Virus record (IMG/VR): IMGVR_UViG_3300034104_005609
Coordinates: 1 to 51,090 of that record
DNA: 51,090 bases
From: a virus
Direction: 5' to 3' (one strand)
In this document: positions 2,617 to 21,210 of the stretch, one piece after another
How the letters are laid out: every line of letters starts with the position of its first letter
How positions within the stretch are numbered: position 1 is the stretch's first letter
Made by a program: the position numbers and the translations under genes
The notes under the pieces: model-generated
What the model saw: the letters and a program-made list of their open reading frames with translations, nothing else
Database searches by the model: none
Told to the model about the DNA's origin: nothing

Positions 2617-3588
2617 ATGAGAGCTTATGAATATATTGAAATGTGTAAAAGGCAAGATGAGCTTTCTCATTTGATAATAGGAGCTATTGTTGACGTATAT
2701 GATATTGAAGAAATAGATATGTTAAAAGAATTATTTCAACAAGTTTATGATACCAAGATTGCAGATATGGCTTCATTAAAAGAATCAATAAAAGCTATTT
2801 CCAATCCTTACAGAATAATGTTTGCTTTATTTCTATGGTCTATTTTTGCCGATAGACTAGACCACTATTTAGAAAATTTCTTGCCATTAAGAGAAGATAG
2901 AAAAAATTCAATTCTTTCTGAAATTCTTGGCTCTATTAATATAAGAACATATCGAAGACTAAAAGACAGATTTACTCTAAAATTTTTAGATTGTCAACTA
3001 GATATTCTTCAAGAAAGAACATCTTTATTCTTATTAAATCGAGAGATTAATTCTCTAACAGATATATTCTTAAAAGTTTATTGTGATAAAAGATTTGATT
3101 CAGATAGTTCTACATTCCAATCATTTATAAATAATGCTGTTCATGGTAGTATTTTTAGAGAGCTTGTTTTAACCCAGCTAGATGTACAATTAATAAATAA
3201 TCTATATCTAGGTACGAAAGGCAATCTTCATATTGATATTGATGTCATTAATAAGTTCAAAATTTCAGATATTCAAGATGTTCTTGACCTTGGTAAATAC
3301 TATCGCATATCAGATATAACATTAACTAAAAATGCAGTATCTAAATTTACAAGTGAAACTCTCGATAAGTATATGAATAGAATTCAAGAAGAGAGTTCTG
3401 TAGGTTTTCGTACTCATACAACTTCAAAGATTATAGAGTTTATAGAGCCCGAAGTTTTAACTGATGAATTGGTTAAAAAATATTATACTAAATTTTTTAG
3501 TGATGCTCGTTCAGTTTTTGTAGAAAGAATTTTAATGCCAAGATATTCTCTTAAAGATATGATAAAATTATTGGAAGGGTGTGCTTAA
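2617..3588 (+). CDS. Unknown mostly helical protein (323 aa)
   Basis: I do not recognise this protein. It is predicted to be largely alpha-helical with many charged residues and has no signal peptide, clear membrane segment or metal motif. The ATG follows ATAGGAGG. It is the first gene of an operon-like run with the two WRSC paralogues, the metallopeptidase and thyA. The downstream ATG lies 1 base after its stop codon, so the two are probably translationally coupled. Its composition is very AT-rich, as in the following genes. Confidence 0.75.
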   Translation: MRAYEYIEMCKRQDELSHLIIGAIVDVYDIEEIDMLKELFQQVYDTKIADMASLKESIKAISNPYRIMFALFLWSIFADRLDHYLENFLPLREDRKNSILSEILGSINIRTYRRLKDRFTLKFLDCQLDILQERTSLFLLNREINSLTDIFLKVYCDKRFDSDSSTFQSFINNAVHGSIFRELVLTQLDVQLINNLYLGTKGNLHIDIDVINKFKISDIQDVLDLGKYYRISDITLTKNAVSKFTSETLDKYMNRIQEESSVGFRTHTTSKIIEFIEPEVLTDELVKKYYTKFFSDARSVFVERILMPRYSLKDMIKLLEGCA

Positions 3589-3589
3589 T

Positions 3590-4681
3590 ATGTTATTGAG
3601 TGAACTTGAGTATAATGTAGAAAATCTTAATAAGATTATTAATATGCTATCCAATGAAAATCAGACGGCTAATATGAGAGGTCATGTAAAAAGATGGAGT
3701 CGTGTAAATAATCATATATTTCAAAAATTCGGACAGCAGTTAAAGATAGAGCGTGAGGTTCAAGGAACTCTTTCAGAAGAACAAATCAGTAAAATTATTT
3801 ATCATGACTTTATCAGAAAAATTGAGAGTGATCCAAAATTTTCATTGGTCACTATATTTTTTCAAGATAATATTGTTACACCAGAAGAAATAGGTCAGAA
3901 TTATCTTAATGAAACACTAACTTTTTTTGGTACTAAATTTAATGCAGGAATGAAGATTTCAAGAATACTTCCTCGATTAGTTCCTAAAAGTGAAAGTGAC
4001 TTTGTACAGGTAGAATATTCAAAGATAGTTCAAAAGTTTTCATTTACTGGCACTGCCGTTCTATCAATAGATCCAGTAGATTATATTACCATGTCAGAGA
4101 ATCAATCTGGTTGGAGATCATGCCATGCTCTCGATGGCGAGTTTCGTACAGGCACACTAGCGTATATGCTAGATTATTGTAGTGTTGTAGGATATGTTAA
4201 AACTAAGGATGTTCCTATTGGTGGTACTTGGTACTCAGATAAGATTTGGAGACAAATGGTTTTAATTGGAGAAGACTATGCAGTTCAAAGTCGCCAATAT
4301 CCTAATAGTAATTCTTTTAATGCAGGAACTATATCTCAAATGTTAATAGATATCTTTGGTGAAAATTATTCTGTTCATAAAAAGAATGTTAGTGATTTGG
4401 GAGAAGTAGTAGAAAATATTGAAACTGACAATGGCACTAGATTATGGTATAATGATATATATGAAAACTCATTTAGCAGGGGAAGAATAGTAATGCCTGA
4501 TAAATATGAGAGCATAGGAGATCTTTACAATAGTGAATCATTCCAACATTTATATGTAGGAGTAGAAAAAATTCCATGTGCTTGTGGTTGTAGTAGAGAT
4601 TTAGAATCAGCAGAATGGATCTACTATGAAAGCTCAGAAGATGATGAAGACTATTGGGATGAAGAATTAGAGGAGGAATAG
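3590..4681 (+). CDS. WRSC-motif protein A, unknown function
   Basis: This 363-residue protein is a paralogue of the one at 5604-6911. They share GMKISR/K-(I/V)L, then a core of DY-x2-MS-x-N-x3-WRSC-x2-LDGE(F/Y)-x2-GTL. In this copy WRSC is at residues 175-178. The invariant Cys and Trp suggest a catalytic or metal-binding core, but I know no function for it. The C-terminus has a short CACGC zinc-knuckle-like cluster and a very acidic tail (EDDEDYWDEELEEE). The ATG at 3590 is preferred to the GTG at 3581 because the GGAAGGG site is about ten bases before it. It is followed two bases later by the metallopeptidase gene. Confidence 0.72.
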   Translation: MLLSELEYNVENLNKIINMLSNENQTANMRGHVKRWSRVNNHIFQKFGQQLKIEREVQGTLSEEQISKIIYHDFIRKIESDPKFSLVTIFFQDNIVTPEEIGQNYLNETLTFFGTKFNAGMKISRILPRLVPKSESDFVQVEYSKIVQKFSFTGTAVLSIDPVDYITMSENQSGWRSCHALDGEFRTGTLAYMLDYCSVVGYVKTKDVPIGGTWYSDKIWRQMVLIGEDYAVQSRQYPNSNSFNAGTISQMLIDIFGENYSVHKKNVSDLGEVVENIETDNGTRLWYNDIYENSFSRGRIVMPDKYESIGDLYNSESFQHLYVGVEKIPCACGCSRDLESAEWIYYESSEDDEDYWDEELEEE

Positions 4682-4683
4682 TA

Positions 4684-5607
4684 ATGTTAAGACAATCAGA
4701 AATAGAATTATTACAAACACTATTTACTCTTGAGCAAGAACAGCTTCATGATTTTTTGTATGATTTTTTATTAGATTATTATACAGAAGAAGAGATAACA
4801 GAAGATGATGTTCACTATCTATATGCTCAGGGTGATATTCCAGTTTTATTAGTGGCTCATCTAGACACAGTTCATAAAGTTAAACCCAAGTTAGACAATA
4901 TATTTCATGATGCAAAAAAGCATAGAATGTGGTCGCCTGTAGGTATTGGTGCCGATGATCGCTGTGGTGTATTTGCTATTGTAATGTTAGTGATGCAGGG
5001 ATATAGACCTCATATAGCGTTCACTTGGAATGAAGAGATTGGTGGTATAGGTGCTCGCAAGATGATTGTAGATTTTATGCCAAAGCAACAGATTAATTTT
5101 GCTATTCAGTTTGACCGCAAAGGCTCCCAAGAAGCTGTATACTATTATTTGGATAGTCTTGCTTTCGAGAACTATATTAACGGCTTTGGATTCAAAACGC
5201 ATCTAGGAACTTATACTGATATCTGTGAGATATGTCCAGATTGGGGCTTTGCAGGAGTCAATCTTTCAGCAGGATATAACTTTGAGCATAGTACCAGCGA
5301 GATAGTCATGGTCGATGTTCTAGTTGACACAATGACAAAAGTAGCTAGTATACTAGATGACCAAAAAGCTAATCCTCAATTCTTTGAATATATGGAAGCT
5401 CCAAAGCACTATACTCCAAGAGCTCAAAGTGAGTGGAATAGTCGTGATGAGTATTATGGGATGGATCCATCAAGCTACTCAGACTATTGTATAGCTTGCG
5501 GAAAGAGTACTGCATGGTACCGCATGTCAGATAGACCCGAGTTTGCCGAGATGTGTATAGATTGCGCAGAAGATATTTTTCCAAGTAAAGGAGCTGTATT
5601 AACATGA
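4684..5607 (+). CDS. M20/M28/M42-like zinc metallopeptidase with C-terminal zinc ribbon
   Basis: Enzymes of this clan remove amino acids from peptides or hydrolyse amides with two zinc ions. The 307-residue protein keeps the full ligand layout: H59-x-D61 (AHLDT), D91/D92 (GADDR), the catalytic E117-E118 (WNEEIGG), D144 (FDRKG) and H202 (EHST). Residues from about 270 add a CxxC...CxxC zinc ribbon (CIACG, CIDCA) not usual in the family. It sits between two paralogous WRSC genes, overlaps the second by an ATGA, and so is probably made with them. It has no signal peptide, so it should act in the cytoplasm. The substrate is unknown. Confidence 0.82.
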   Translation: MLRQSEIELLQTLFTLEQEQLHDFLYDFLLDYYTEEEITEDDVHYLYAQGDIPVLLVAHLDTVHKVKPKLDNIFHDAKKHRMWSPVGIGADDRCGVFAIVMLVMQGYRPHIAFTWNEEIGGIGARKMIVDFMPKQQINFAIQFDRKGSQEAVYYYLDSLAFENYINGFGFKTHLGTYTDICEICPDWGFAGVNLSAGYNFEHSTSEIVMVDVLVDTMTKVASILDDQKANPQFFEYMEAPKHYTPRAQSEWNSRDEYYGMDPSSYSDYCIACGKSTAWYRMSDRPEFAEMCIDCAEDIFPSKGAVLT

Positions 5608-6911
5608 TAGGTCTCGAACAAATACAACAAGATTTCAGAGATACGATAGGAGGGTATATATCCTCTCCTGTTCTTTTTTCCTTTGATAAATATCAGAAGA
5701 ATAAGGCTTCTCTATTTGAAGACCTAGGCAATCAATATATTTATACAAGACAGAATATAGTGGTAGAAATAAAAGAAGATTCAAAGTTAAAAATGATGCG
5801 TGAATTTATTGATAAGATTAGTGGATTTTATAATAAGAAGGTTTTATATGACTTTTTAGAAGTCAATGGAGTAGATGGCTTCTTTGAAAACAAGATTACA
5901 AAAACCTTTTATATGCTATTAAGTATACATGATGAAGTCTATTCATTTAGTGATGCTACCATTGATGGCATAAAAAGCTTGAAGCTTCAGCAGGGTATGA
6001 AGATTTCCAAAGTATTAAAGTATTTCATTAAAGAAGATTCTGCTCATATGCTATATCACATTCAAACTAAATACTCACAGATTATAAATGGCTCTAGACT
6101 ATCTGGAAATCTATCTCTATCCATTCACCCTCTAGACTATCTTTCAATGTCGCACAACAATGAGAACTGGCGTTCATGTCAGTCGCTAGATGGAGAGTAT
6201 GCCTCTGGTACTTTAAGTTTAATGTGTGACCAAACAACTCTAGTAGCCTATCTGGCTTCGCCAGAACTACAAGAGCTAGACTGGGGTGGGGTTCGATGGA
6301 ACTCTAAAAAATGGAGGGTTCTAGTACATATAGATAAAACAAGAAATCGAATAGTATTATCGAAGCACTATCCATTTTATTCATATGAGCTTGAAACTCA
6401 ACTAGTAGAAATGATTAAAGAAATATATCCACAATTTAAGGATTCTGAAATTCAAAATCTTGAAAACTCAGACAGCGTAATTTCAAAAGTACGAGATGCT
6501 CAGAACTATAATGACATAGCTAGATCAAATGGTTTTATTACTAGAACTCTTTCAACTGATAGCGAATCTGAGAAGATTTTAATAGGTACAGTAGTTCCCT
6601 GTTTACATTGTGGTAAGAATCCAATAGAAGACGCTATGTCTTTTGCTTGTTATCACTGTATGCCGATAGAAACTAGCTTCTGTGATAGATGTGAAACAAA
6701 TGGTCATCGTGAGGAAGATATGTATTGGGTTTCACAAGAAGATAGAAGCATTTGTTCTGATTGTTTTAATTATGCATATGATATTTGTGATAGTTGTAGC
6801 TATGTTATACCTCAAGAAGAGATGTCTTCTGGAGATATGCGTATTTGTAAAGAATGTGAAGAAAATCATAGGAGGCAAAATGAACAAAGTCGATCAACTG
6901 TTTCAGGATAA
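5604..6911 (+). CDS. WRSC-motif protein B with zinc-finger tail, unknown function
   Basis: A 435-residue paralogue of the protein at 3590-4681. It shares the DY-x2-MS-x-N-x3-WRSC-x2-LDGEY-x2-GTL core (W189-C192 here) and the GMKIS segment before it. From about residue 330 it carries at least four CxxC pairs and nearby histidines (CLHCG, CYHC, CDRC, CSDC, CDSC, CKEC), giving several zinc ribbons or RING-like fingers. Paralogue A has only a small cysteine cluster. The ATG overlaps the stop of the peptidase gene. Its end overlaps the thyA start by 32 bases. The zinc fingers suggest binding to nucleic acid or protein; function is unknown. Confidence 0.75.
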   Translation: MIGLEQIQQDFRDTIGGYISSPVLFSFDKYQKNKASLFEDLGNQYIYTRQNIVVEIKEDSKLKMMREFIDKISGFYNKKVLYDFLEVNGVDGFFENKITKTFYMLLSIHDEVYSFSDATIDGIKSLKLQQGMKISKVLKYFIKEDSAHMLYHIQTKYSQIINGSRLSGNLSLSIHPLDYLSMSHNNENWRSCQSLDGEYASGTLSLMCDQTTLVAYLASPELQELDWGGVRWNSKKWRVLVHIDKTRNRIVLSKHYPFYSYELETQLVEMIKEIYPQFKDSEIQNLENSDSVISKVRDAQNYNDIARSNGFITRTLSTDSESEKILIGTVVPCLHCGKNPIEDAMSFACYHCMPIETSFCDRCETNGHREEDMYWVSQEDRSICSDCFNYAYDICDSCSYVIPQEEMSSGDMRICKECEENHRRQNEQSRSTVSG

Positions 6912-7704
6912 TATTAAGACTATTTTAAGGGTGGGGTCTTGGGATAAAAATCCACGACCCGTATGGCCTGATGGCACCGTAGCACATAGTAGATTTATAA
7001 CTCAAGTACATGAAACATATGACCTAGCAGCTGGAGAATTTCCTCTAACATCACTGCGTAAAATTGCTTGGAAAAGTGCTATCAAAGAAATGCTATGGAT
7101 TTATCAAGACCAATCTAACGACATAGATTTACTGAAGTCAAAGTATGGAATCTCATGGTGGGATGAGTGGGAAAGCCTTCAACACCCCAGAACTATTGGT
7201 TTGAGATATGGCTACACAGTAAAAAAGTTTAATCAAATTGATAACCTAATCAAAGAGATTAAGGCCAACCCAGATTCACGCAGACTAATTATGACACTAT
7301 GGGATTGGACTGATTTATATGCAAGTGATGGATTATATCCTTGTGCCTATGAAACGCTGTGGTCTATATCAGATAATAAATTAAACGTGACTTTGATACA
7401 AAGATCCAGCGACTATCTTGCGGCTGGACATATTAATAAGATTCAATATGTGGCTCTTCAAATGATGGTAGCTGCAGAGTGTGGATTAGAGTTAGGAAAG
7501 TTTACTCATTTTGTTAATAACCTTCATATCTATGATAGGCATTTAGCCTACGCAGAACAGCTTGCAGACGTTCAAACTGACGTGGGAATACCAAAGTTAA
7601 TCTTAAATAAAAAACCTTTCTATGAGGTCAATATTGATGATTTTGAGCTTCTAGGATATGAGCCTGTTAATCAAGAGCCTGTTAAATTAGAGATAGCAAT
7701 CTAA
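6880..7704 (+). CDS. thyA: Thymidylate synthase ThyA
   Basis: ThyA methylates dUMP to dTMP with methylene-tetrahydrofolate. The 274-residue protein has the substrate-binding arginine pair region (DSRRLIM), the catalytic Cys155 (PCAYET), the QRSSD phosphate-binding motif, Asn186 (HINKIQY) and HIYDRH. Asn at this place reads uracil; dCMP hydroxymethylases have Asp, so this should act on dUMP. The PCxYET and INKIQY forms resemble Bacillus and Clostridium ThyA. The ATG at 6880 follows AGGAGG; frame extensions upstream lie inside the previous gene. A dUMP hydroxymethylase is a less likely alternative. With dUTPase and RNR it supplies dTTP. Confidence 0.93.
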   Translation: MNKVDQLFQDNIKTILRVGSWDKNPRPVWPDGTVAHSRFITQVHETYDLAAGEFPLTSLRKIAWKSAIKEMLWIYQDQSNDIDLLKSKYGISWWDEWESLQHPRTIGLRYGYTVKKFNQIDNLIKEIKANPDSRRLIMTLWDWTDLYASDGLYPCAYETLWSISDNKLNVTLIQRSSDYLAAGHINKIQYVALQMMVAAECGLELGKFTHFVNNLHIYDRHLAYAEQLADVQTDVGIPKLILNKKPFYEVNIDDFELLGYEPVNQEPVKLEIAI

Positions 7705-12388: not shown

Positions 12389-12665
12389 GATTGATGTGTT
12401 AAAATCCAAAAATTATATAGTATATCATAAAGATTATAGATTTAAAGAAGACTGGCTTCTTCAGGCTCATTTGTTAAAAGCTCAACGAGCAATGGATTTT
12501 ATCCAGTTTTTAGATGAGAAGTATGGCGATCAGGTTCGTATTATAAGGGAATCATATGTATGTCCTGTTGAAAAAGTTTATACTGGACCAGCTGGATTCA
12601 AGCTAGAGTTTCTGAATAAAAAAGCAGCAGAAGATTATTGTAGCGTACTAAATGGGTTAGGGTGA
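12378..12665 (+). CDS. Small unknown protein (95 aa)
   Basis: A soluble protein of unknown role, with lengths and layout (short strand, long helix AHLLKAQRAMDFIQFLDEKYG, strand, helix) like a small ferredoxin-type fold. The ATG at 12378 follows AGGAGG by ten bases; a frame extension to 12345 has no such site. Its general pattern resembles the small protein at 910-1197 (a helix ending in DEKYG/KDNYD, then VRI), so the two may be distant relatives. Confidence 0.6.
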   Translation: MAFKIDVLKSKNYIVYHKDYRFKEDWLLQAHLLKAQRAMDFIQFLDEKYGDQVRIIRESYVCPVEKVYTGPAGFKLEFLNKKAAEDYCSVLNGLG

Positions 12666-12670
12666 GGATA

Positions 12671-13105
12671 GTGTCAAAAACAATTGTTTTAGTTACTGGT
12701 GGATTTGATCCATTACACTCTGGTCATATAGCCTATTTTAATTCAGCCAAGAGACTAGGAGACTTACTCGTAGTTGGGCTTAATAGTGATGAATGGCTAA
12801 CTAGAAAAAAGGGTAAATCATTTTTATCTTTTTATGAGCGAAATGCAATAATATCTAATCTAAAAATGGTAGATTTGACTATTGGTTTTAATGACGATGA
12901 TGGATCTGCTTGTGAAGCTATACGAGAAACTAGAAATATATTTAGACAAGATAAAATTATTTTTGCTAATGGTGGAGATAGAACTGCGAACAATATTCCC
13001 GAGATGTCTGTCATAGATGAAAGTTTAATATTTGAATTTGGTGTTGGTGGCGAAGATAAAAAGAATAGTTCAAGTTGGATTTTGAAAGAGTGGAGTACTA
13101 GATGA
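12671..13105 (+). CDS. Nucleotidyltransferase of the TagD/RfaE-C type
   Basis: These enzymes join CTP or ATP to a phosphorylated alcohol or sugar (for example glycerol-3-phosphate or heptose-1-phosphate). The 144-residue protein has GGFDPLHSGH (HSGH at residues 16-19), LGDLLVVGLNSD, the KKGKSF phosphate loop and an SSSW segment replacing the ISTT-type motif near the end. The late GGDRTANNIPE and GVGGEDK segments fit the heptose-type branch better than classical TagD. The start is GTG at 12671 or 12662; the site is weak because the previous gene ends here. It opens the sugar cassette. Confidence 0.85.
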   Translation: MSKTIVLVTGGFDPLHSGHIAYFNSAKRLGDLLVVGLNSDEWLTRKKGKSFLSFYERNAIISNLKMVDLTIGFNDDDGSACEAIRETRNIFRQDKIIFANGGDRTANNIPEMSVIDESLIFEFGVGGEDKKNSSSWILKEWSTR

Positions 13106-13797
13106 TAAATATAGATAGAGTTTATATTATATGTTCTGAAAAATATGAAGCTGATAAGTATGAAAAATGGCAACAATGGCTAGACAGTAATAATATTAAT
13201 GGCGAGATATCATTCTATAAATGGGGTACAGAGTTAACACAAGAAGAGGTTGATTCTTATGTACTCAGAGATGGGACATTGGAAAAATATTACCCTTGGA
13301 GAACTGGATATCCTATTAGAAATTCAGAAGCTTCAATAGCTATTAATTTTATTAAAATATTTGAAGATGCCTATAAAAAAGGATATAATAGAATATTGAC
13401 ATTAGAAAGCGATGTTCTTCTACACCCAGACTTTATAAGTAAAGTTAACGAAATATTAAAGATGACTGAGCAAGTAGACTTAAATGTAATATCAATTGGT
13501 TGTGGAATGGGATATAGGATCAAGTCCGAAAGTGGAGAAAATATCATAGCTGGAGTTAATCAGTTTAGATGTGCCGATAGCTTAATTTTTACAAATACAG
13601 CAATAGATTATTTCTATAATAATCTAAAGCAAATCAGAGTGCCAGTTGACGAAGAGTTTACTAGAGCAGTTCAAGAAAATCATATCTCGGTATATTGGTT
13701 AGAGCCACCAATTGCAATTCAACAATCACAAATGGCTGGCAATTCTAGTCAAACACAAAATGGGAATTATAACTTAAGGATTCCATGGGAGATATAG
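13102..13797 (+). CDS. Glycosyltransferase, GT25-like
   Basis: A 231-residue protein with a GT-A pattern. After an N-terminal IDRVYIIC strand comes a segment SIAINFIKIFEDAYKKGYNRILTLESDV, which matches the GT25-type 'helix then L-E-(D/S)-D-(V)' nucleotide and metal site. The usual EDD is ESD here. A late VDEEFTRAV may help catalysis. The ATG overlaps the TGA of the nucleotidyltransferase gene. It should act in the cytoplasm, with unknown donor and acceptor. Confidence 0.68.
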   Translation: MINIDRVYIICSEKYEADKYEKWQQWLDSNNINGEISFYKWGTELTQEEVDSYVLRDGTLEKYYPWRTGYPIRNSEASIAINFIKIFEDAYKKGYNRILTLESDVLLHPDFISKVNEILKMTEQVDLNVISIGCGMGYRIKSESGENIIAGVNQFRCADSLIFTNTAIDYFYNNLKQIRVPVDEEFTRAVQENHISVYWLEPPIAIQQSQMAGNSSQTQNGNYNLRIPWEI

Positions 13798-13798
13798 T

Positions 13799-14515
13799 AT
13801 GTCATTAAATATACAACCTTTTATTTTTAACTGGCGAAATCAATATGATAAAACAAAGAAAATAGAATCTTCATTACTGAAAATATTTGATCGAGTCGAT
13901 GTTATTAATAGCGATGAGCTACACAATGAGCCTCAGTGGACAAATATAGGAGAACAAGCATATTTTGCAGAGCAGTTTTTAACCGCAGTAAATATGTTTG
14001 ATGGCGATATTTTCTTTCACATTCAAGGCGATATAGAATTTGATAGATGGGAAGAGTTAGTTGATGCCGCACAAAAATATTATGAAAAATATCAATGGGG
14101 CATATATGCTCCTAATGTAGATTATACTTGGTATAGCTCACAAAATGCAGATATTCAGACTATTAGATTTACAGAAGATACGAATCTTCGAGCTGTTTCA
14201 AATCCAGATTGCACTATATGGTTTATACATCGAGATATAATTAATACTCTAAAACAGAATCCATTTGATTTATCTTTTATGAAGTACGGCTGGGGCTTAG
14301 ATTTAATCCTGTGTGGTAATTCTTACCTTCAGAAAAGATTAGTTATGCGAGATTATGAGTTTACTGTAGACCACCCCCCTGGAACAGGATATATGCAGAA
14401 TGAAGCATTTGAAGAGCTAGGAGTGTTATTGAGTAAATGTAACCCAGACTTACAGAATGTAATACAAGCTATTAGGTTTGATAGAAATTTTTTAGTAAAT
14501 TATTTTAGGAGTTAA
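13799..14515 (+). CDS. Putative glycosyltransferase (GT-A-like)
   Basis: A 238-residue protein probably of GT-A type: an N-terminal strand (IQPFIFNWRN), a metal-site-like stretch IFFHIQGDIEFD, then WFIHRDII and YGWGLDLILC, the last resembling the acceptor-side GWG-D motif of several glycosyltransferase families. It starts two bases after the preceding gene and ends two bases before the fucosyltransferase gene, so all are coupled. The assignment rests on pattern and context. Confidence 0.55.
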   Translation: MSLNIQPFIFNWRNQYDKTKKIESSLLKIFDRVDVINSDELHNEPQWTNIGEQAYFAEQFLTAVNMFDGDIFFHIQGDIEFDRWEELVDAAQKYYEKYQWGIYAPNVDYTWYSSQNADIQTIRFTEDTNLRAVSNPDCTIWFIHRDIINTLKQNPFDLSFMKYGWGLDLILCGNSYLQKRLVMRDYEFTVDHPPGTGYMQNEAFEELGVLLSKCNPDLQNVIQAIRFDRNFLVNYFRS

Positions 14516-14516
14516 T

Positions 14517-15374
14517 ATGAATATAGCATATCTGGATTTCTGGCCTGGCTTCGACCCTAATTGTAACTGGTTTAATTTATTATTTTCAGATTATTTTGAT
14601 AGTCGAGAAATCAACTTCGGCTCTGATGCAAAAGAGGCTGATGTCATTGTATTCTCCTCGTTTGGCCTTGAGCACCTAGCACAGGGTATCAATAAAAAAG
14701 CTATAAAGATATTTTATACAGGAGAAAATCATAGACCGCCCCATTACTGTGATTTCTCCTTTTCTTTTGACATAGACTCTTATGGAGGGAAAAACTTAAG
14801 ACTTCCAATTTGGTATCTGTATATAAATTGGTGGAATCAACCTGACTTTCCTCATGCGAGAATAACTCCAGAGATGCTGATAAAAAAATGGGATCCAGAT
14901 GAAGTCTTAAATAGAGAAAACTTTTGCTCTATCGTAATTGGAAATCCAGTTAAAAATAGAATTGAAGTAGCTCAAAAGTTAAATCAACTAGCTCCAGTTC
15001 ATGGCTATGGAGCAGTTTTTGGAAATTCTTATTCTGGAGATAAAGTTAAACTCTTAGAACGCTATAAATATAATATATGCTTTGAAAATACAATAGCTGA
15101 TGGATATGTAACAGAAAAATTATTAGAGGCTAAGACTGCTGGTTGTATTCCCATCTATTATGGAGACCGAGAATCTGTTGCTAGAGATTTTAATTATAAA
15201 AGTTTTATAAATTTTTATGATTATAAAAATGCAGAAGAATTATTTGATTACATACTTACACTTGAAAAAAATAAAGAAATGTGCTATAATATATTAAATG
15301 AGAAATTATTTAATGAGAATCCAACACTAGATTTTATTTATAATTTCCTAAACAAGAATAGAATAGGTGGATAG
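14517..15374 (+). CDS. Fucosyltransferase, family GT10-like
   Basis: GT10 enzymes move L-fucose from GDP-fucose onto a sugar acceptor (alpha-1,3/1,4). The 285-residue protein has the family's YTGEN (67-71), a beta segment before it, and the GDP-fucose signature FEN-x5-GYVTEKL (189-203) followed by AGCIPIYYG. Its donor would be made by the gmd and fcl products encoded about 4.5 kb downstream. There is no membrane segment, so it works in the cytoplasm. The ATG is preceded by TTAGGAG. Another deoxy- or heptose donor cannot be excluded. Confidence 0.85.
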   Translation: MNIAYLDFWPGFDPNCNWFNLLFSDYFDSREINFGSDAKEADVIVFSSFGLEHLAQGINKKAIKIFYTGENHRPPHYCDFSFSFDIDSYGGKNLRLPIWYLYINWWNQPDFPHARITPEMLIKKWDPDEVLNRENFCSIVIGNPVKNRIEVAQKLNQLAPVHGYGAVFGNSYSGDKVKLLERYKYNICFENTIADGYVTEKLLEAKTAGCIPIYYGDRESVARDFNYKSFINFYDYKNAEELFDYILTLEKNKEMCYNILNEKLFNENPTLDFIYNFLNKNRIGG

Positions 15375-15377
15375 ATT

Positions 15378-16091
15378 ATGATTTGTGTATTAACTCATCA
15401 GGGGCTTGGAGATCATATTATTTGTAACGGGTTGATTAGGAGTCTTCTAGAAAAGCATGATTCAATCGTGTTATTTGTAAAAGAAAATATTTTTCTTAGC
15501 GTTCAAAGAATGTATGACAATGAATCAAGGATATTTTGTTTTCCAATGTTAAAGTCCGCAGGAGAAGAAGACTACTTTTCTTTTTTTACAAAAAATAAAA
15601 ATACAATGAAGATTGGTTTTTCCAAGTATTGGGAATTAGTGCATAAGTCTTTAGAAATAACAGAGGAATTTTTAGAGCAAAAATTTGACTATAATTTTTA
15701 TAAGCTGGCAGATATAAATTTTGAAAACAGATGGAAAAAATTTAGTTTTCAAAGAAGTTATGAAGATGAAAATAGAGTATTTAAGAAGTTAAACCCAGAT
15801 AATGAACCATATATATTTGTTCATGATGATATTGCTAGAGGATTTGCATTAAATCCTAGTAATCCAAATAATTATAAAATTATAAAAAACGATCCCAGTG
15901 AATTAATTTTTTCAATGATTTCTATACTAGAAAATGCAGAAGAAATACACTGTATGGAAAGTTCATTTAATGCATTAATTGAATGCTTACCAACTATAAA
16001 AGATAATAAATTATTTTATCATTCAAAAGTTAGGAATTATCCCTATTGGCTAATTTCAACTACTAAAAGAAACTGGAGTATAATAGATTGA
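15378..16091 (+). CDS. Putative GT9-like glycosyltransferase
   Basis: A 237-residue protein starting with MICVLTHQGLGDHIICNGLIRSL. That GLGDHI strand-turn-helix resembles the N-terminal Rossmann unit of GT-B enzymes of the heptosyltransferase type. The second half (YIFVHDDIARGF, then AEEIHCMESSFNALIE) fits the donor-binding half in a shortened form. It is shorter than classical GT9 proteins (over 300 residues), so it could be a minimal or divergent member. The gene lies in the coupled sugar run. Confidence 0.55.
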   Translation: MICVLTHQGLGDHIICNGLIRSLLEKHDSIVLFVKENIFLSVQRMYDNESRIFCFPMLKSAGEEDYFSFFTKNKNTMKIGFSKYWELVHKSLEITEEFLEQKFDYNFYKLADINFENRWKKFSFQRSYEDENRVFKKLNPDNEPYIFVHDDIARGFALNPSNPNNYKIIKNDPSELIFSMISILENAEEIHCMESSFNALIECLPTIKDNKLFYHSKVRNYPYWLISTTKRNWSIID

Positions 16092-16092
16092 T

Positions 16093-17604
16093 ATGAATAA
16101 AATTATTGTTCAAGCTGGAGGGAAAGGTAGTAGATTAGAAAAGCATACCTTTAATAAGCCAAAAGCATTAGTCTCAGTAAATGGAAAGCCAATATTATTT
16201 CACTTGTTTGACAAATTTCCAGACTCAGAATTTATAATTATATCAGACTATAAGCATGAGGTATTTAAAAGGTACCTCAAAAAATATGCGAAAGTAAAAT
16301 TTAATATAATTAAAACAAATGAGTCTGGTACTTGTTCTGGGATAGAAGACTCACTATTTTTTATAGAAGAAGATGAGCCTTTCGTTTTGATATGGTCTGA
16401 TTTAATTCTAAGCGATATAGAGCTACCAAAGGAAGTTAGTACTAATTTCATAGGAATTTCTCAGGACTTTAATTGTAGGTGGTCTTATATAGAAAAATCT
16501 CTAATAGAGACACCTTCTATCAATCAAGGAGTAGCTGGATTTTTTATATTTAAGAATAAGTATGAGTTGAATTTAGTTCCAAGATCTGGGGAGTTTGTTA
16601 GATGGTTAAAGGAAAAAAGAAAGTCTTTTGTTGAAATACCTTTGTTCAGTACAAAAGAATTTGGACTTAGGAAAGAATATGAAGATAATGAAATAAAAAA
16701 TAAAAAAAGCAGACCTTTTAATAGGGTTATATTTACAGATACAATAGTTGAAAAAGTTCCACTAGATAAAACTGGCATTGATCTTGCTAAAAAAGAAAAA
16801 AATTGGTATAATTTTGTTATTAGAAATAACTATTCAAATATACCAAAAGTATATTCTTTTGATCCATTTCAAATAGAGCGTCTAGAATCTATTAGTTTAG
16901 TAGATAATAATATTTCTTATGAGAATAAATCTACTATATTAAAAAATATAGTAAAGGCCATCAAAGACTTGCATAGTTTAGTTGAAGAAGAAAGAGTGGA
17001 TGAACGTTCAGTTTATAAAAACTACATTGAAAAAACATATGAAAGAGTTTTAATCGTTCAAGATTTAATTCCCTTTATTGAGAATGAGTTTATAAAAATA
17101 AATGGTAAAAAATGCAGAAATATTTTTAAGTCATTTGATTTAATTAAACTAAATTATAAAGACTTTATTCCAAATAAATTTAATTTAATTCATGGAGATA
17201 CAACCTTTTCAAATGTAATTATAGATAATAATTTTAATACTTTTTTAATAGATCCTCGTGGATATTTTGGAGAAACATCTTTATTTGGAGATGTTGACTA
17301 TGATTGGGCTAAATTATACTATTCAATAAAAGGAAATTATGACCAATTTAATTCTAATAATTTTGAATTAAAAATATTAGATAATGAAGTAGAGCTATCT
17401 ATAGACAGTAGTGGCTGGGAAGAAATGGAAGATTTATTTTTTGATTTAATAGGACAAGATAAAAAAATGAAAATATTATTTTTACATTTTTTAATTTGGC
17501 TATCTTTAACAAGTTATACTTCAGATAACTATGATGCTATATGTGGCGCTTTTTATAAGGGGATATATGAATATGAAAGATATTTTTCAGAGTCAAATAA
17601 GTAG
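16093..17604 (+). CDS. Fused sugar nucleotidyltransferase and APH-type kinase
   Basis: The N-terminal part (about 1-210) is an NTP_transferase domain: QAGGKGSRLE with GGKGSR at 9-14, then NKPKALVSVNGKPI and WSDLILSD, the last being the metal aspartate region. The C-terminal part (about 220-503) is an aminoglycoside-phosphotransferase/choline-kinase fold, with the catalytic HGD at 367-369 (HGDTTFSN) and the metal-binding IDPRG (Asp387), then GDVDYDWAKLYYS. A single protein could thus phosphorylate a sugar and then activate it with a nucleotide. The next gene overlaps its end by 38 bases. Substrate and nucleotide are unknown. Confidence 0.85.
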   Translation: MNKIIVQAGGKGSRLEKHTFNKPKALVSVNGKPILFHLFDKFPDSEFIIISDYKHEVFKRYLKKYAKVKFNIIKTNESGTCSGIEDSLFFIEEDEPFVLIWSDLILSDIELPKEVSTNFIGISQDFNCRWSYIEKSLIETPSINQGVAGFFIFKNKYELNLVPRSGEFVRWLKEKRKSFVEIPLFSTKEFGLRKEYEDNEIKNKKSRPFNRVIFTDTIVEKVPLDKTGIDLAKKEKNWYNFVIRNNYSNIPKVYSFDPFQIERLESISLVDNNISYENKSTILKNIVKAIKDLHSLVEEERVDERSVYKNYIEKTYERVLIVQDLIPFIENEFIKINGKKCRNIFKSFDLIKLNYKDFIPNKFNLIHGDTTFSNVIIDNNFNTFLIDPRGYFGETSLFGDVDYDWAKLYYSIKGNYDQFNSNNFELKILDNEVELSIDSSGWEEMEDLFFDLIGQDKKMKILFLHFLIWLSLTSYTSDNYDAICGAFYKGIYEYERYFSESNK

Positions 17605-18163
17605 TATGACAGGGGTAATTGATAGTATTGATTATTTAAAATTTGATAGTTTAATCTTAGATTGTGTTAATGCTATAAAAGATAATAAGTCTATAATAGC
17701 GACAGGGCTAGGTAAAAATGAATCTATATGCGAAAAGTTTATTGGAACCCTAACATCGATCGGTATATCTTCTTATTTTTTAAACACAAACTCTGCTGTA
17801 CATGGAGATCTTGGTAGTATTAAAAATGGAGATGTCGTTTTAATGTTAACAAAAAGTGGTGAAACAATAGAGTCGGTTTACTTATATCATTTCTTAAAAA
17901 AAAGAAATATTAAAATTTGGCTACTCAGTTTTAATGAAAGTAGCACTCTTTCTAGCTTAATAAATGATAAGATTATAATGAATTTAGATTCTGAAGGAGA
18001 TAGGTGGAATTTAATACCTAATAATTCTAGTATAAGTTTTTTGTTAGTTTTACAAGGATTGGCTATGAGATTACTAGATGATTTAGATATTTCAATAGAT
18101 ATCTTTAGAGGAAATCACCCTGGTGGGCATATAGGAAAAATTTTAGATATGGGGTTAGATTGA
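17567..18163 (+). CDS. SIS-domain sugar isomerase, arabinose-5-phosphate isomerase-like
   Basis: KdsD/KpsF-type enzymes interconvert D-ribulose-5-phosphate and D-arabinose-5-phosphate. The 198-residue protein has the family's GLGKNES, HGDLGSIKNGD (His79), SGETIES (Ser97), and the C-terminal HPGGHIGK (184-191). It stops there, so the two CBS domains of KdsD are missing, as in shorter members. ATG at 17567 or 17573 follows AAGGGG; a start at 17531 lacks a site. Its neighbours are a sugar kinase-nucleotidyltransferase and a HAD phosphatase. A GmhA-like heptose isomerase is less likely because of the HPGG motif. Confidence 0.83.
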   Translation: MNMKDIFQSQISSMTGVIDSIDYLKFDSLILDCVNAIKDNKSIIATGLGKNESICEKFIGTLTSIGISSYFLNTNSAVHGDLGSIKNGDVVLMLTKSGETIESVYLYHFLKKRNIKIWLLSFNESSTLSSLINDKIIMNLDSEGDRWNLIPNNSSISFLLVLQGLAMRLLDDLDISIDIFRGNHPGGHIGKILDMGLD

Positions 18164-18164
18164 T

Positions 18165-18533
18165 ATGGATAGTATAAAAGTTTCTACATTAAATAAAACT
18201 TGGATTATTGACTTAGATGGAACAGTATTAAAACATGCTGGATACATGAAAGATGGATATGATTCTTTATTACCAGAGGCTAAAAATTTTTTGAATAAAT
18301 TATCTAAAAATGATTTTATAATATTTATAACAGCAAGAAAAGAAAAATATAGAAAAATAACAGAAGAGTTTCTTTCATTAAATAATATTATCTATAGCTT
18401 AATAATTTTTGATGCCCCACTTGGAGAAAGAATTGTTATAAATGACATAAAACCCACTGGACTAAAAACAGCTATTGCCTTGAACGTAGAAAGAGATAGT
18501 GGATTAAAATATAATATAATCGAATGTTTGTAG
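18165..18533 (+). CDS. HAD-superfamily sugar phosphatase-like protein
   Basis: A small (122-residue) HAD protein. Motif I is DLDGT (16-20, nucleophile Asp16 in IIDLDGT), motif II is FITARKEKY, and motif IV is in VINDIKPTG. Similar small HADs occur in capsule gene clusters near sugar kinases and isomerases. It starts two bases after the isomerase stop. By analogy with GmhB it may remove a phosphate from a bisphosphorylated sugar made by the fused kinase; that is an inference. Its cap is minimal. Confidence 0.78.
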   Translation: MDSIKVSTLNKTWIIDLDGTVLKHAGYMKDGYDSLLPEAKNFLNKLSKNDFIIFITARKEKYRKITEEFLSLNNIIYSLIIFDAPLGERIVINDIKPTGLKTAIALNVERDSGLKYNIIECL

Positions 18534-18541
18534 GTGCTATA

Positions 18542-19231
18542 ATGAATATAATTTCAATGAGTGTTTTTGGAAATAATAATAGGTATATAGTGGGAGCTAA
18601 ACGACAAATTGAATTAGCTAAAAAATATTATGACAACTGGACAATAAGATTATATGTTGATAATATTGATAATTTTAAAGATCTTGAAAAAGACATTCAA
18701 TTAGTTGAGGTTAAAAATAATCTTTATGGTGTTTTTTGGAGATTTGAACCTTTGTTTGAAAGTGAAAATAATATAACTATTATTAGAGATTCAGATGATA
18801 GAATATCTCTAAGAGAGTATTTAGCAGTTCAAGAATGGTTAGTTAGTGATAAGCTATTTCATAATATAAAAGATCATGATGCCCACTATGAATATCCTAT
18901 TATGGCTGGCCTTTTTGGATATAAAGGAAAATTTAATAGTAGTACATATGAAATTATGAAACTACATGCTTTACAAAATAAATTTTATTTAAGTGACCAG
19001 TTTTTCTTAAGAGATTTTATTTTTCCACAAGTTATTGACAGCGTGATGCTTCATTCTTTAAATGAAGGCTGGTTTTCTGAGACAAGAAAAAGATTGATAA
19101 ATCCATATTGTTTCTGTGGCAATGGATATGATGAACAAGATATTCCAATATATCCAGCATCTATAAATTCAAAAATTGACTACTCTAAAGACTTAGTTTT
19201 CGACGGTGGAAGATTGACAGATTTATCATAA
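18542..19231 (+). CDS. Putative glycosyltransferase of sugar clusters
   Basis: A 229-residue protein with a GT-A feel: N-terminal SMSVFGNNNRY, the helix GAKRQIELAKKYY, then IIRDSDDRISLRE where DSD is a likely metal site. Further on are MAGLFGYKGK and a segment with SDQFFLRD. Proteins with this RDSD-x2-S-x-RE stretch occur in surface-polysaccharide clusters. The ATG at 18542 is favoured over 18524, which lacks spacing to the GGTG site. It is the last gene before the gmd promoter. Confidence 0.58.
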   Translation: MNIISMSVFGNNNRYIVGAKRQIELAKKYYDNWTIRLYVDNIDNFKDLEKDIQLVEVKNNLYGVFWRFEPLFESENNITIIRDSDDRISLREYLAVQEWLVSDKLFHNIKDHDAHYEYPIMAGLFGYKGKFNSSTYEIMKLHALQNKFYLSDQFFLRDFIFPQVIDSVMLHSLNEGWFSETRKRLINPYCFCGNGYDEQDIPIYPASINSKIDYSKDLVFDGGRLTDLS

Positions 19232-19242
19232 TATATTATAAT
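19214..19242 (+). promoter_or_regulatory. Consensus sigma-A promoter, TTGACA-N17-TATAAT
   Basis: Both boxes are perfect (19214-19219 and 19237-19242) with a 17-base spacer. It overlaps the end of the previous gene and gives the gmd-fcl pair, and perhaps the nrd genes, their own start. Confidence 0.9.
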
Positions 19243-19286
19243 ATTATAATAAGATATAATTTCTACTTGAGAATGAGGAGGAACAA

Positions 19287-20300
19287 ATGAAGAAGGCCCT
19301 AATTACTGGAATAACTGGACAAGATGGTTCTTATCTTGCTGAGCTTCTTTTAGAAAAAGGATATGAAGTTCATGGTATCATTAGAAGATCATCTTCTATA
19401 AATACCAAAAGAATTGACCATTTATATAATAATTCAAACTTGAAACTTCACCATGGCGACTTAACAGACTTTAGTAGTCTGATAAAAACAATACAGGACA
19501 TTCAGCCTCAAGAAATATATAATCTTGGAGCTCAAAGTCATGTTAAAGTTTCTTTTGAAATACCAGAGTACACTGGACAGGTTGATGCGCTAGGACCTCT
19601 TAGAATATTAGAGGCTGTAAGAATTTTAGGACTTGAAAGTCAAGTTCGTATATACCAAGCATCAACGTCAGAACTATTTGGTTTAGTCCAAGAAACTCCA
19701 CAGCGTGAAACAACACCCTTCTATCCACGATCTCCTTATGGAGTTGCAAAAATCTATGGATATTGGATTACAAAAAACTATCGTGAGTCTTATGGAATGT
19801 ATGCATGTACAGGCATTCTTTTTAATCATGAGTCCCCTAGAAGAGGCGAAACATTTGTAACTAGAAAAATTACAATGGGATTAAAAGCAATAGCAGAAGG
19901 TAAACAAGAATGTTTATATTTGGGCAACCTTAATGCTCGACGTGACTGGGGCCATGCTAAAGACTTTGTGGAGGCAATGTGGCTAATGCTGCAGCAGCCA
20001 GAACCAGACGACTTTGTTATAGCCACAGGAGAACAGTACTCTGTAAAAGATTTTATAAATGAAGCAGCTCCTTTTTTTGGAATGAGCATTGAATGGCATG
20101 GTGAAGGCGTTGATGAAGCGGGAGTCGATACACTTACAGGTCGCACAGTAATAAAAGTAAGCTCTAAATATTTTAGACCTGCTGAAGTAGAGTCATTATT
20201 AGGAGATGCTAGTAAAGCTAAGAATATTTTAGGGTGGACTCCAAAACACACTTTTAAAGAATTAGTGAAGGATATGTGTGAAAATGAAGAAGGATTCTAA
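19287..20300 (+). CDS. gmd: GDP-mannose 4,6-dehydratase
   Basis: Gmd turns GDP-D-mannose into GDP-4-keto-6-deoxymannose, the first step to GDP-L-fucose. The 337-residue protein is full length. It has the NADP-binding [32 protein letters not shown], the catalytic [17 protein letters not shown] (Tyr and Lys), [16 protein letters not shown] and the [11 protein letters not shown] segment. A GAGGAGG site precedes the ATG. The fcl gene overlaps its end by 23 bases. A GDP-heptose dehydratase (DmhA-like) is a possible variant. Confidence 0.95.
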
Positions 20301-21210
20301 GATTTATGTTGCTGGGCACAGAGGATTAGTGGGGTCTGCAGTTGTCAGAAAATTAGAGTCTGATGGATATTTTAATATATTAAAAAAAACTAGAGAAGAG
20401 CTAGATCTAACAGATCAATACAAGGTTAGAAAGTTCTTTAATGAAGAAAAGCCAAAGTTTGTATTTCTTGCTGCAGCAAAAGTTGGTGGCATAGGAGCAA
20501 ACTCCAGATTCCAAGCAGACTTTTTAAGAGAGAATATACTAATACAAACTAATATTATTGATAGTGCTTATAGAAATAATTGTAATAAGTTATTATTTTT
20601 AGGATCCTCATGTATATATCCAAAATTTTCAGAGCAACCTATAAAAGAATCTTCTCTGATGTCTGGATTGCTTGAGCCCACAAATTCAGCATATGCTATT
20701 GCTAAAATTGCTGGGATTGAAATGTGTCAGAAATATAATGAACAATATGGTTTTAATGCAATCTCGTTGATGCCAACTAATCTATATGGGATAAATGATA
20801 ACTTTGATATTGATAGTGGGCATGTTTTACCAGCTTTAATTTCAAAGTTTATTTTTGCAAAGAAAAACAATTTAGATAGTGTTAAGTGTTGGGGAACTGG
20901 ATCACCATATAGAGAATTTTTATTTGTAGATGATTTAGCAGATGCTGCTGTATGGGCCATGAATAACTACAATGATTCAGCTATTTTGAATGTTGGAACT
21001 GGAAAAGATATAACAATCAAAGAGCTATCAGAAACCATTAAAAATCTTGTTGGATTCGATGGATCAATTATATGGGACAGCTCTCAACCAGATGGAACTC
21101 CCAGAAAACTTTTAGATGTTTCTAGGATAAATGGATTTGGTTGGAAATATAAAACTGAACTCATCGAAGGAATAAAAAAGACTATAGAGTGGTATAATAA
21201 ATATAATTAA
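20278..21210 (+). CDS. fcl: GDP-L-fucose synthase (epimerase/reductase)
   Basis: Fcl epimerises and reduces GDP-4-keto-6-deoxymannose to GDP-L-fucose. The 310-residue short-chain dehydrogenase has [10 protein letters not shown] (NADP loop), [15 protein letters not shown], the catalytic NSAYAIAK (Tyr-x3-Lys), [20 protein letters not shown] and the [13 protein letters not shown] segment; all are typical. The GTG at 20278 follows AAGGA by six bases and is preferred over the ATG at 20284. It overlaps gmd, so the two are coupled and should make GDP-L-fucose together. Confidence 0.94.

Follow-up and report, generated by a model that had tools for sequence, protein, structure and literature searches.

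Conserved pairing of WRSC proteins with a lid-less metallopeptidase in phage genomes

The stretch of DNA analyzed here, in the following termed the window, is the IMG/VR virus record IMGVR_UViG_3300034104_005609 with a length of 51,090 bases. It contains a cassette of three genes, all of which, like every further feature for which window positions are given below as part of this cassette, are located on the plus strand: WRSC paralogue 1 of the upstream type (3590..4681, 363 amino acids, with an alternative GTG start possible at 3581), a PepT/M42/M28-like metallopeptidase (4684..5607, 307 amino acids) and WRSC paralogue 2 of the downstream type (5604..6911, 435 amino acids). A preliminary description had read this region as two paralogous proteins flanking a metallopeptidase, encoded by genes that overlap or nearly touch and that may together constitute a working trio, with host peptides, amides or protein tags as possible targets. 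All three open reading frames are confirmed in the window sequence, and the spacing is as tight as had been claimed, with 2 nucleotides between paralogue 1 and the peptidase gene and a 4-nucleotide ATGA overlap between the latter and paralogue 2.

The motif common to the two WRSC proteins is letter-exact, reading DYITMSENQSGWRSCHALDGEFRTGTL in paralogue 1 (4079..4159) and DYLSMSHNNENWRSCQSLDGEYASGTL in paralogue 2 (6135..6215), where C192 is invariant and S191 nearly so across 88 homologues. Since a single profile recovers both proteins with E about 1e-43, they are, judged by their sequences, true paralogues. Core profile matches in PHROGs v4 assign paralogue 1 to phrog_18912 (E 1.3e-30) and paralogue 2 to phrog_29713 (E 2.7e-5), clusters that also have members in Enterococcus phages, arranged there as the same trio. 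Both clusters are unnamed and without function, they carry no record of an association with the peptidase or with the podophage proteins treated below, and no Pfam, NCBIfam or PADLOC family covers the core of either WRSC protein, so that the family is indeed uncharacterised. A Pfam scan of the 88 homologues gave scattered single matches only, many of them to zinc-finger models, a search of viral contigs with paralogue 1 alone found nothing, and literature searches returned no functional study.

Across the 88 homologues, residues S173, C192, R238, Y256 and D304 are invariant, and K133, P176, D178, S183, S191 and K235 are near-invariant. Y256 is part of the sequence KHYP (6363..6374) at the RxYP position of paralogue 2. 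The conserved RxYP of paralogue 1 reads RQYP (4292..4303) and is placed by alignments at the predicted junction of strand 4 and helix 3, i.e., where the acetyl-CoA loop of GNAT proteins is located. The second paralogue is rich in CxxC pairs, as first noted; six of them are present, and its zinc-finger or LIM-like C-terminal region (6600..6863) gave FYVE/LIM-type matches over residues 352-432. Tails of homologues carry up to 14 CxxC pairs, six being the commonest number.

The peptidase matches Pfam Peptidase_M28 with 22.0 bits at a cut-off of 21.3, stays under the cut-off for Pfam M20 and matches phrog_34186 with E 1.7e-78. Among solved structures, PepT (E 3.5e-14) and the M42 TET aminopeptidases (E down to 2.9e-8) come closest to it in profile comparison. 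The active site appeared complete from the outset, and the full clan MH set HxD, D, EE, D, H is present and conserved: the zinc ligands H59-L-D61 (4858..4866) and the bridging ligand D91 (4954..4956) in 120/120 homologues, and the catalytic base E117 with ligand E118 (5032..5037), ligand D144 (5113..5115) and ligand H202 (5287..5289) in 119 of the 120 each, with one gap. The added zinc ribbon was likewise recovered in the form of the C-terminal CxxC pairs CIAC and CIDC (5488..5565); at least two CxxC pairs occur in this region in 65 of the 120 homologues. Only 58 residues separate D144 from H202, so there is no room for the M20 lid/dimerisation domain. The window enzyme thus shares all dinuclear-zinc ligands and the two catalytic glutamates with Peptidase T (M20B) and the M42 TET aminopeptidases, but lacks the lid and has the zinc ribbon in addition. 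The earlier label of an M20/M28-like peptidase is narrowed to a lid-less enzyme with PepT and M42 aminopeptidases as nearest relatives by sequence, which is probably an aminopeptidase or a related amidohydrolase.

The pairing of WRSC and peptidase genes is well supported by scans of viral contigs, which yielded 80 loci with the peptidase and 74 loci with the WRSC protein as seed. A WRSC gene accompanies the peptidase in 71/80 loci, in every case on the strand of the peptidase, the order being WRSC-peptidase in 45, WRSC-peptidase-WRSC in 23 and another one in three loci. Conversely, the peptidase was found on the same strand in 62 of the 74 WRSC-seeded loci, several of the remainder stopping near a contig edge. 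WRSC genes were located within 250 nucleotides of the peptidase in 67 loci, as compared to about 11 expected from random placement among the open reading frames of the same loci. Six of the nine peptidase-only loci contain a large open reading frame that extends over the beginning of the peptidase gene; four of these frames (loci L075, L078, L083 and L087) match the full-length WRSC profile, partly via the CxxC tail, and the other two (L082 and L086) carry an SC[MQ] motif. The contig end cuts the upstream side short in the remaining three (L031, L077 and L085). The profile search across phages that the preliminary description had suggested as a check hence found the peptidase usually adjoining, rather than relatives that never have it as a neighbor.

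Phylogenetic analysis of 169 core sequences (a quick tree with long branches present) correlated well with gene position. When WRSC proteins were labelled as far upstream, adjacent upstream, downstream or far downstream, 13 label changes occurred on the tree as compared to a mean of 83.5 after shuffling. Paralogue 1 clusters with adjacent-upstream WRSC proteins (98% support in the Shimodaira-Hasegawa-like approximate likelihood ratio test), and the nearest kin of paralogue 2 are all of the downstream type. The few label changes and the grouping by position indicate that, as far as the sequences tell, the two paralogue types, upstream and downstream, separated long ago. The constant neighbor, the retained order and strand, the old and separate paralogues and the unrelatedness of the phages concerned strongly support a working trio. 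The trio arrangement itself is real, but it is one form of a wider module that more commonly consists of a pair, with a single WRSC-type gene immediately ahead of the peptidase gene, and the partners do not always occur together.

The module is also present in named phages. By tblastn, Enterococcus phages H1 and VRE9_4 of the 134-142 kb class exhibit the identical WRSC-peptidase-WRSC order, H1 with an additional third WRSC-type gene upstream, and matches were also obtained in Enterococcus phages EF1, EF5 and the other VRE9 isolates. A structure search of BFVD with the model of paralogue 2, which is blind to gene neighborhood, retrieved proteins of phages JA29, Buco, KpV48 and a Vibrio phage; E values ranged from 6e-4 to 5e-7 for the matches in KpV48 (659 amino acids), Buco (574 amino acids) and JA29 (653 and 595 amino acids). 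Tied to genes by organism and protein length, the matches from KpV48 (Klebsiella) and Buco (Shigella) are hypothetical proteins encoded directly upstream of a 'putative peptidase', a layout also found in Peggy and VP93; in PP16 and Pasto, a large gene annotated as hypothetical occupies the corresponding position. These podophage proteins (phrog_6980 and phrog_13313), the early hypothetical proteins of KP34-like and PhiM1-like phages, have SCM in place of WRSC(H/Q) and a longer N-terminal part, and share the pattern SC...R...RxY...YxD with the WRSC family, i.e., SCM, an R and RxY are kept and YxD usually is. In the BFVD comparison, SCM and WRSC proteins matched at E 6e-4 to 2e-6, and their motifs are in the same register. 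The putative link between the two families rests on structure and position, because the profile-profile E values of 0.06-0.07 are not significant. Relatives of the peptidase were counted in 389 phage records and those of the KpV48 protein in 336, adjacency having been read in opened records only. The cultivated Escherichia phage Minorna also has the SCM gene. Papers on the KP34-like and PhiM1-like genera list the two genes, without function, among the few conserved early open reading frames preceding the primase (PMC4411677, PMC6115819). The SCM proteins of Shigella phage Buco (gp9, L185:2265-3989) and Vibrio phage NS8 carry the labels 'putative GIY-YIG endonuclease' and 'biosynthesis protein', which are probably wrong.

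Structure prediction of the WRSC core, also suggested beforehand, resulted in a model of good confidence. The core domain of paralogue 2 (5973..6587), folded alone, reached a predicted local distance difference test score (pLDDT) of 89.4 and the whole protein one of 88.9. The order of elements in the core is beta-alpha-alpha-beta-beta-beta-alpha followed by shorter strands, which is the order seen in GNAT-fold transferases such as Gcn5, VipF, FemX and MprF. In VIA-align, GNAT-fold proteins occupied nearly all of the top 50 rows, among them GCN5, VipF, malonyl-CoA decarboxylase, FemX, MprF and N-myristoyltransferase, with a best Z of 6.3 that lies below the trust level of the tool, 8, under which values can arise from a common arrangement of elements. 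GNATs again came first with the whole of paralogue 2 (Z up to 4.4). Foldseek against PDB gave no significant match for the whole protein or the core (E above 0.5 for the core), and profile searches of the core against PDB sequences yielded nothing useful. A GNAT-type fold of the WRSC core is graded as likely and not firmer, because Z stays under 8 and a significant Foldseek match in PDB is missing. The family differs from GNATs in that none of the 88 members matches a Pfam GNAT family, the loop (R/Q)xxGx(G/A) is absent and an invariant Cys is located in the loop before helix 2. Judged from their positions in the predicted fold, the conserved residues may form one pocket.

Kinship with PcfJ (PF14284), which has a similar spacing around a Cys, was considered and rejected since none of the 88 WRSC proteins gave a PcfJ profile match; the Cys followed by similarly spaced strands in both families may hint at a distant relationship. 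A PcfJ-family gene is found ahead of the WRSC gene in one gut phage fragment (L006:257-2146).

Based on these findings, we tentatively favor, as possible rather than probable, that the WRSC proteins are acyl- or aminoacyl-transferase-like proteins that act together with the aminopeptidase on one substrate, forming a phage module for modification and hydrolysis. The three genes would then represent one expression unit as well as one working unit. The WRSC proteins, likely enzymatic, would be transferase-type proteins of GNAT fold that lack the usual acetyl-CoA loop through loss but retain a conserved set consisting of a basic GxK, S-x-x-P-x-D, SC, K-x-x-R, RxYP and YxD, their zinc-finger tails probably serving in substrate docking, and the peptidase would be a dinuclear-zinc aminopeptidase of PepT/M42 type without a lid. 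That two conserved partners come together, a probable aminopeptidase or amidohydrolase and a probable loop-less GNAT-fold protein, suggests that they act in turn on the same free amines, e.g., the N-termini of proteins or peptides. The peptidase would trim the end, or take a group off again, and the WRSC protein would add an acyl or aminoacyl group, such that N-termini would be recoded or protected during host takeover. Co-expression, transferase activity, donor, acceptor, order of steps and biological target are what we infer here from the homology, the intact peptidase site, the conserved pairing and order, the old split of the paralogues and the predicted structure of the core.

Apart from the modest Z values and the lack of a significant Foldseek match, several observations weigh against this interpretation. 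The acetyl-CoA pyrophosphate loop (R/Q)xxGx(G/A) is replaced by RxYP in the alignments, and a WRSC domain without it may not be a transferase at all. No WRSC-peptidase fusion protein occurs among the homologues examined, and related rumen and gut phages supply part of the IMG/VR signal. Dickeya phage JA29 has the tandem WRSC genes JA29_178 and JA29_179 (L187) and no peptidase was detected in its genome, and the reverse is seen in Lactococcus phage P087, Brevibacillus phage Jenst, Thermus phage G20c and Bacillus phage BcoS-136, which encode the peptidase without a core match to either the WRSC or the SCM profile (P087 and Jenst give weak matches to these profiles outside the core). In the 634-kb phage LR745206 (LR745206.1; L179, W09), the genes for at least eight SCM proteins mostly lie apart from those for the four or five lid-less peptidases, just one peptidase having an SCM gene close by.

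The best surviving alternative, which we nevertheless consider doubtful, is that WRSC proteins are non-catalytic adaptors that use their zinc-finger tail and their core to capture host proteins, parts of the ribosome or nucleic acids, passing exposed ends to the peptidase. The latter would be the sole enzyme of the module and would serve the degradation of host proteins or the recycling of amino acids. The numerous CxxC pairs of the tails, their FYVE/LIM-type matches, the missing acetyl-CoA loop and the fully conserved active site of the peptidase are all in accordance with such a role. On the other hand, conservation is highest in the core and not in the tail, adaptors would rarely preserve a Cys, an Arg and a Tyr unchanged in many phage families, and the two WRSC genes of JA29 are retained where no peptidase was detected.

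A counter-defence or toxin-control pair, in which a host defence protein or an aminoacyl-tRNA is disabled by one partner and the second one shields the phage or undoes the modification, is unlikely. The position of the pair among the conserved pre-primase early genes of KP34-like and PhiM1-like phages would fit, and GNATs acting on phage-host targets are known, e.g., Rac of phage LUZ19, through which RNA polymerase alpha comes to be cleaved (PMC7552054). PADLOC defence models are unmatched, however, save for a weak, partial match of Cas10 type (E 0.05), and within several genera the module belongs to the constant core, whereas counter-defence genes usually have a patchy distribution. Rac resembles the module in being a phage GNAT that ultimately brings about the proteolysis of a host protein, but it is a separate gene, found in another phage subfamily beside the gene for the phage RNA polymerase, relies on host proteases without a peptidase partner, and the early region of phiKMV has no such pair; its location, its lack of partner and its intact acetyl-CoA pocket rule it out as a WRSC homologue.

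Shared ancestry of a gene block that moves together without joint function is disfavored as quite improbable because genome contexts are varied: the closest relatives also keep the two genes flanking the cassette and synteny is partly inherited, but the pair persists in podophages of Klebsiella, Vibrio, Shigella and Cronobacter, in 140-kb Enterococcus phages and in rumen phages with otherwise different neighbors, and the paralogues hold their positions on the tree.

Those flanking genes encode the UV endonuclease UvdE (1550-2560) upstream and thymidylate synthase (6880-7704) downstream of the cassette; both are kept in the nearest relatives (L008-L010), the synthase also in L101. DNA hypermodification, by analogy with Mom-type GNATs, was dismissed since no modification genes were seen travelling with the module; linkage of thymidylate synthase to the module in the closest relatives only was weighed against that reading. 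A 323-amino acid gene (2617-3588) with a weak PHROGs match stops 1 nucleotide ahead of the first WRSC gene and has no relatives in any fetched locus. Further downstream, a long stretch of sugar-nucleotide and glycosyltransferase-like genes (12662-21210), recognized from translations alone, includes GMP/GDP-mannose and fucose-type epimerases and a phosphosugar isomerase. In 53 of 120 loci, a family of proteins of about 268 amino acids with four invariant Cys residues near the C-terminus is encoded between a far-upstream WRSC gene and the peptidase (e.g., L131:7047-7928). It is absent in the window; one member scanned had no match in Pfam or PHROGs, and 28 members gave nothing convincing. A bacterial origin of the module was rejected, as only 13 loci were found in 84,980 genomes, nearly all of them marked as metagenome-assembled.

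In the searches made, the module as a unit appears undescribed beyond the annotations 'putative peptidase' and 'hypothetical protein', and its components are members of known enzyme superfamilies or similar to them. In T7-like podophages, in large Enterococcus phages and in phages of rumen and gut, these two annotations now stand for two genes that persist as a unit. In its most far-reaching form, which we regard as rather unlikely, the module would represent a widespread phage system, active early in infection in hundreds of phages, that edits protein ends or free amines by means of a loop-less GNAT-fold transferase with an invariant Cys and another donor, e.g., aminoacyl-tRNA, and a dedicated aminopeptidase. 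The podophage members have been described as conserved early genes of cultivated phages, which makes an effect on the host directly testable. If the transferase reading is true, the module would constitute a new phage route of protein modification.

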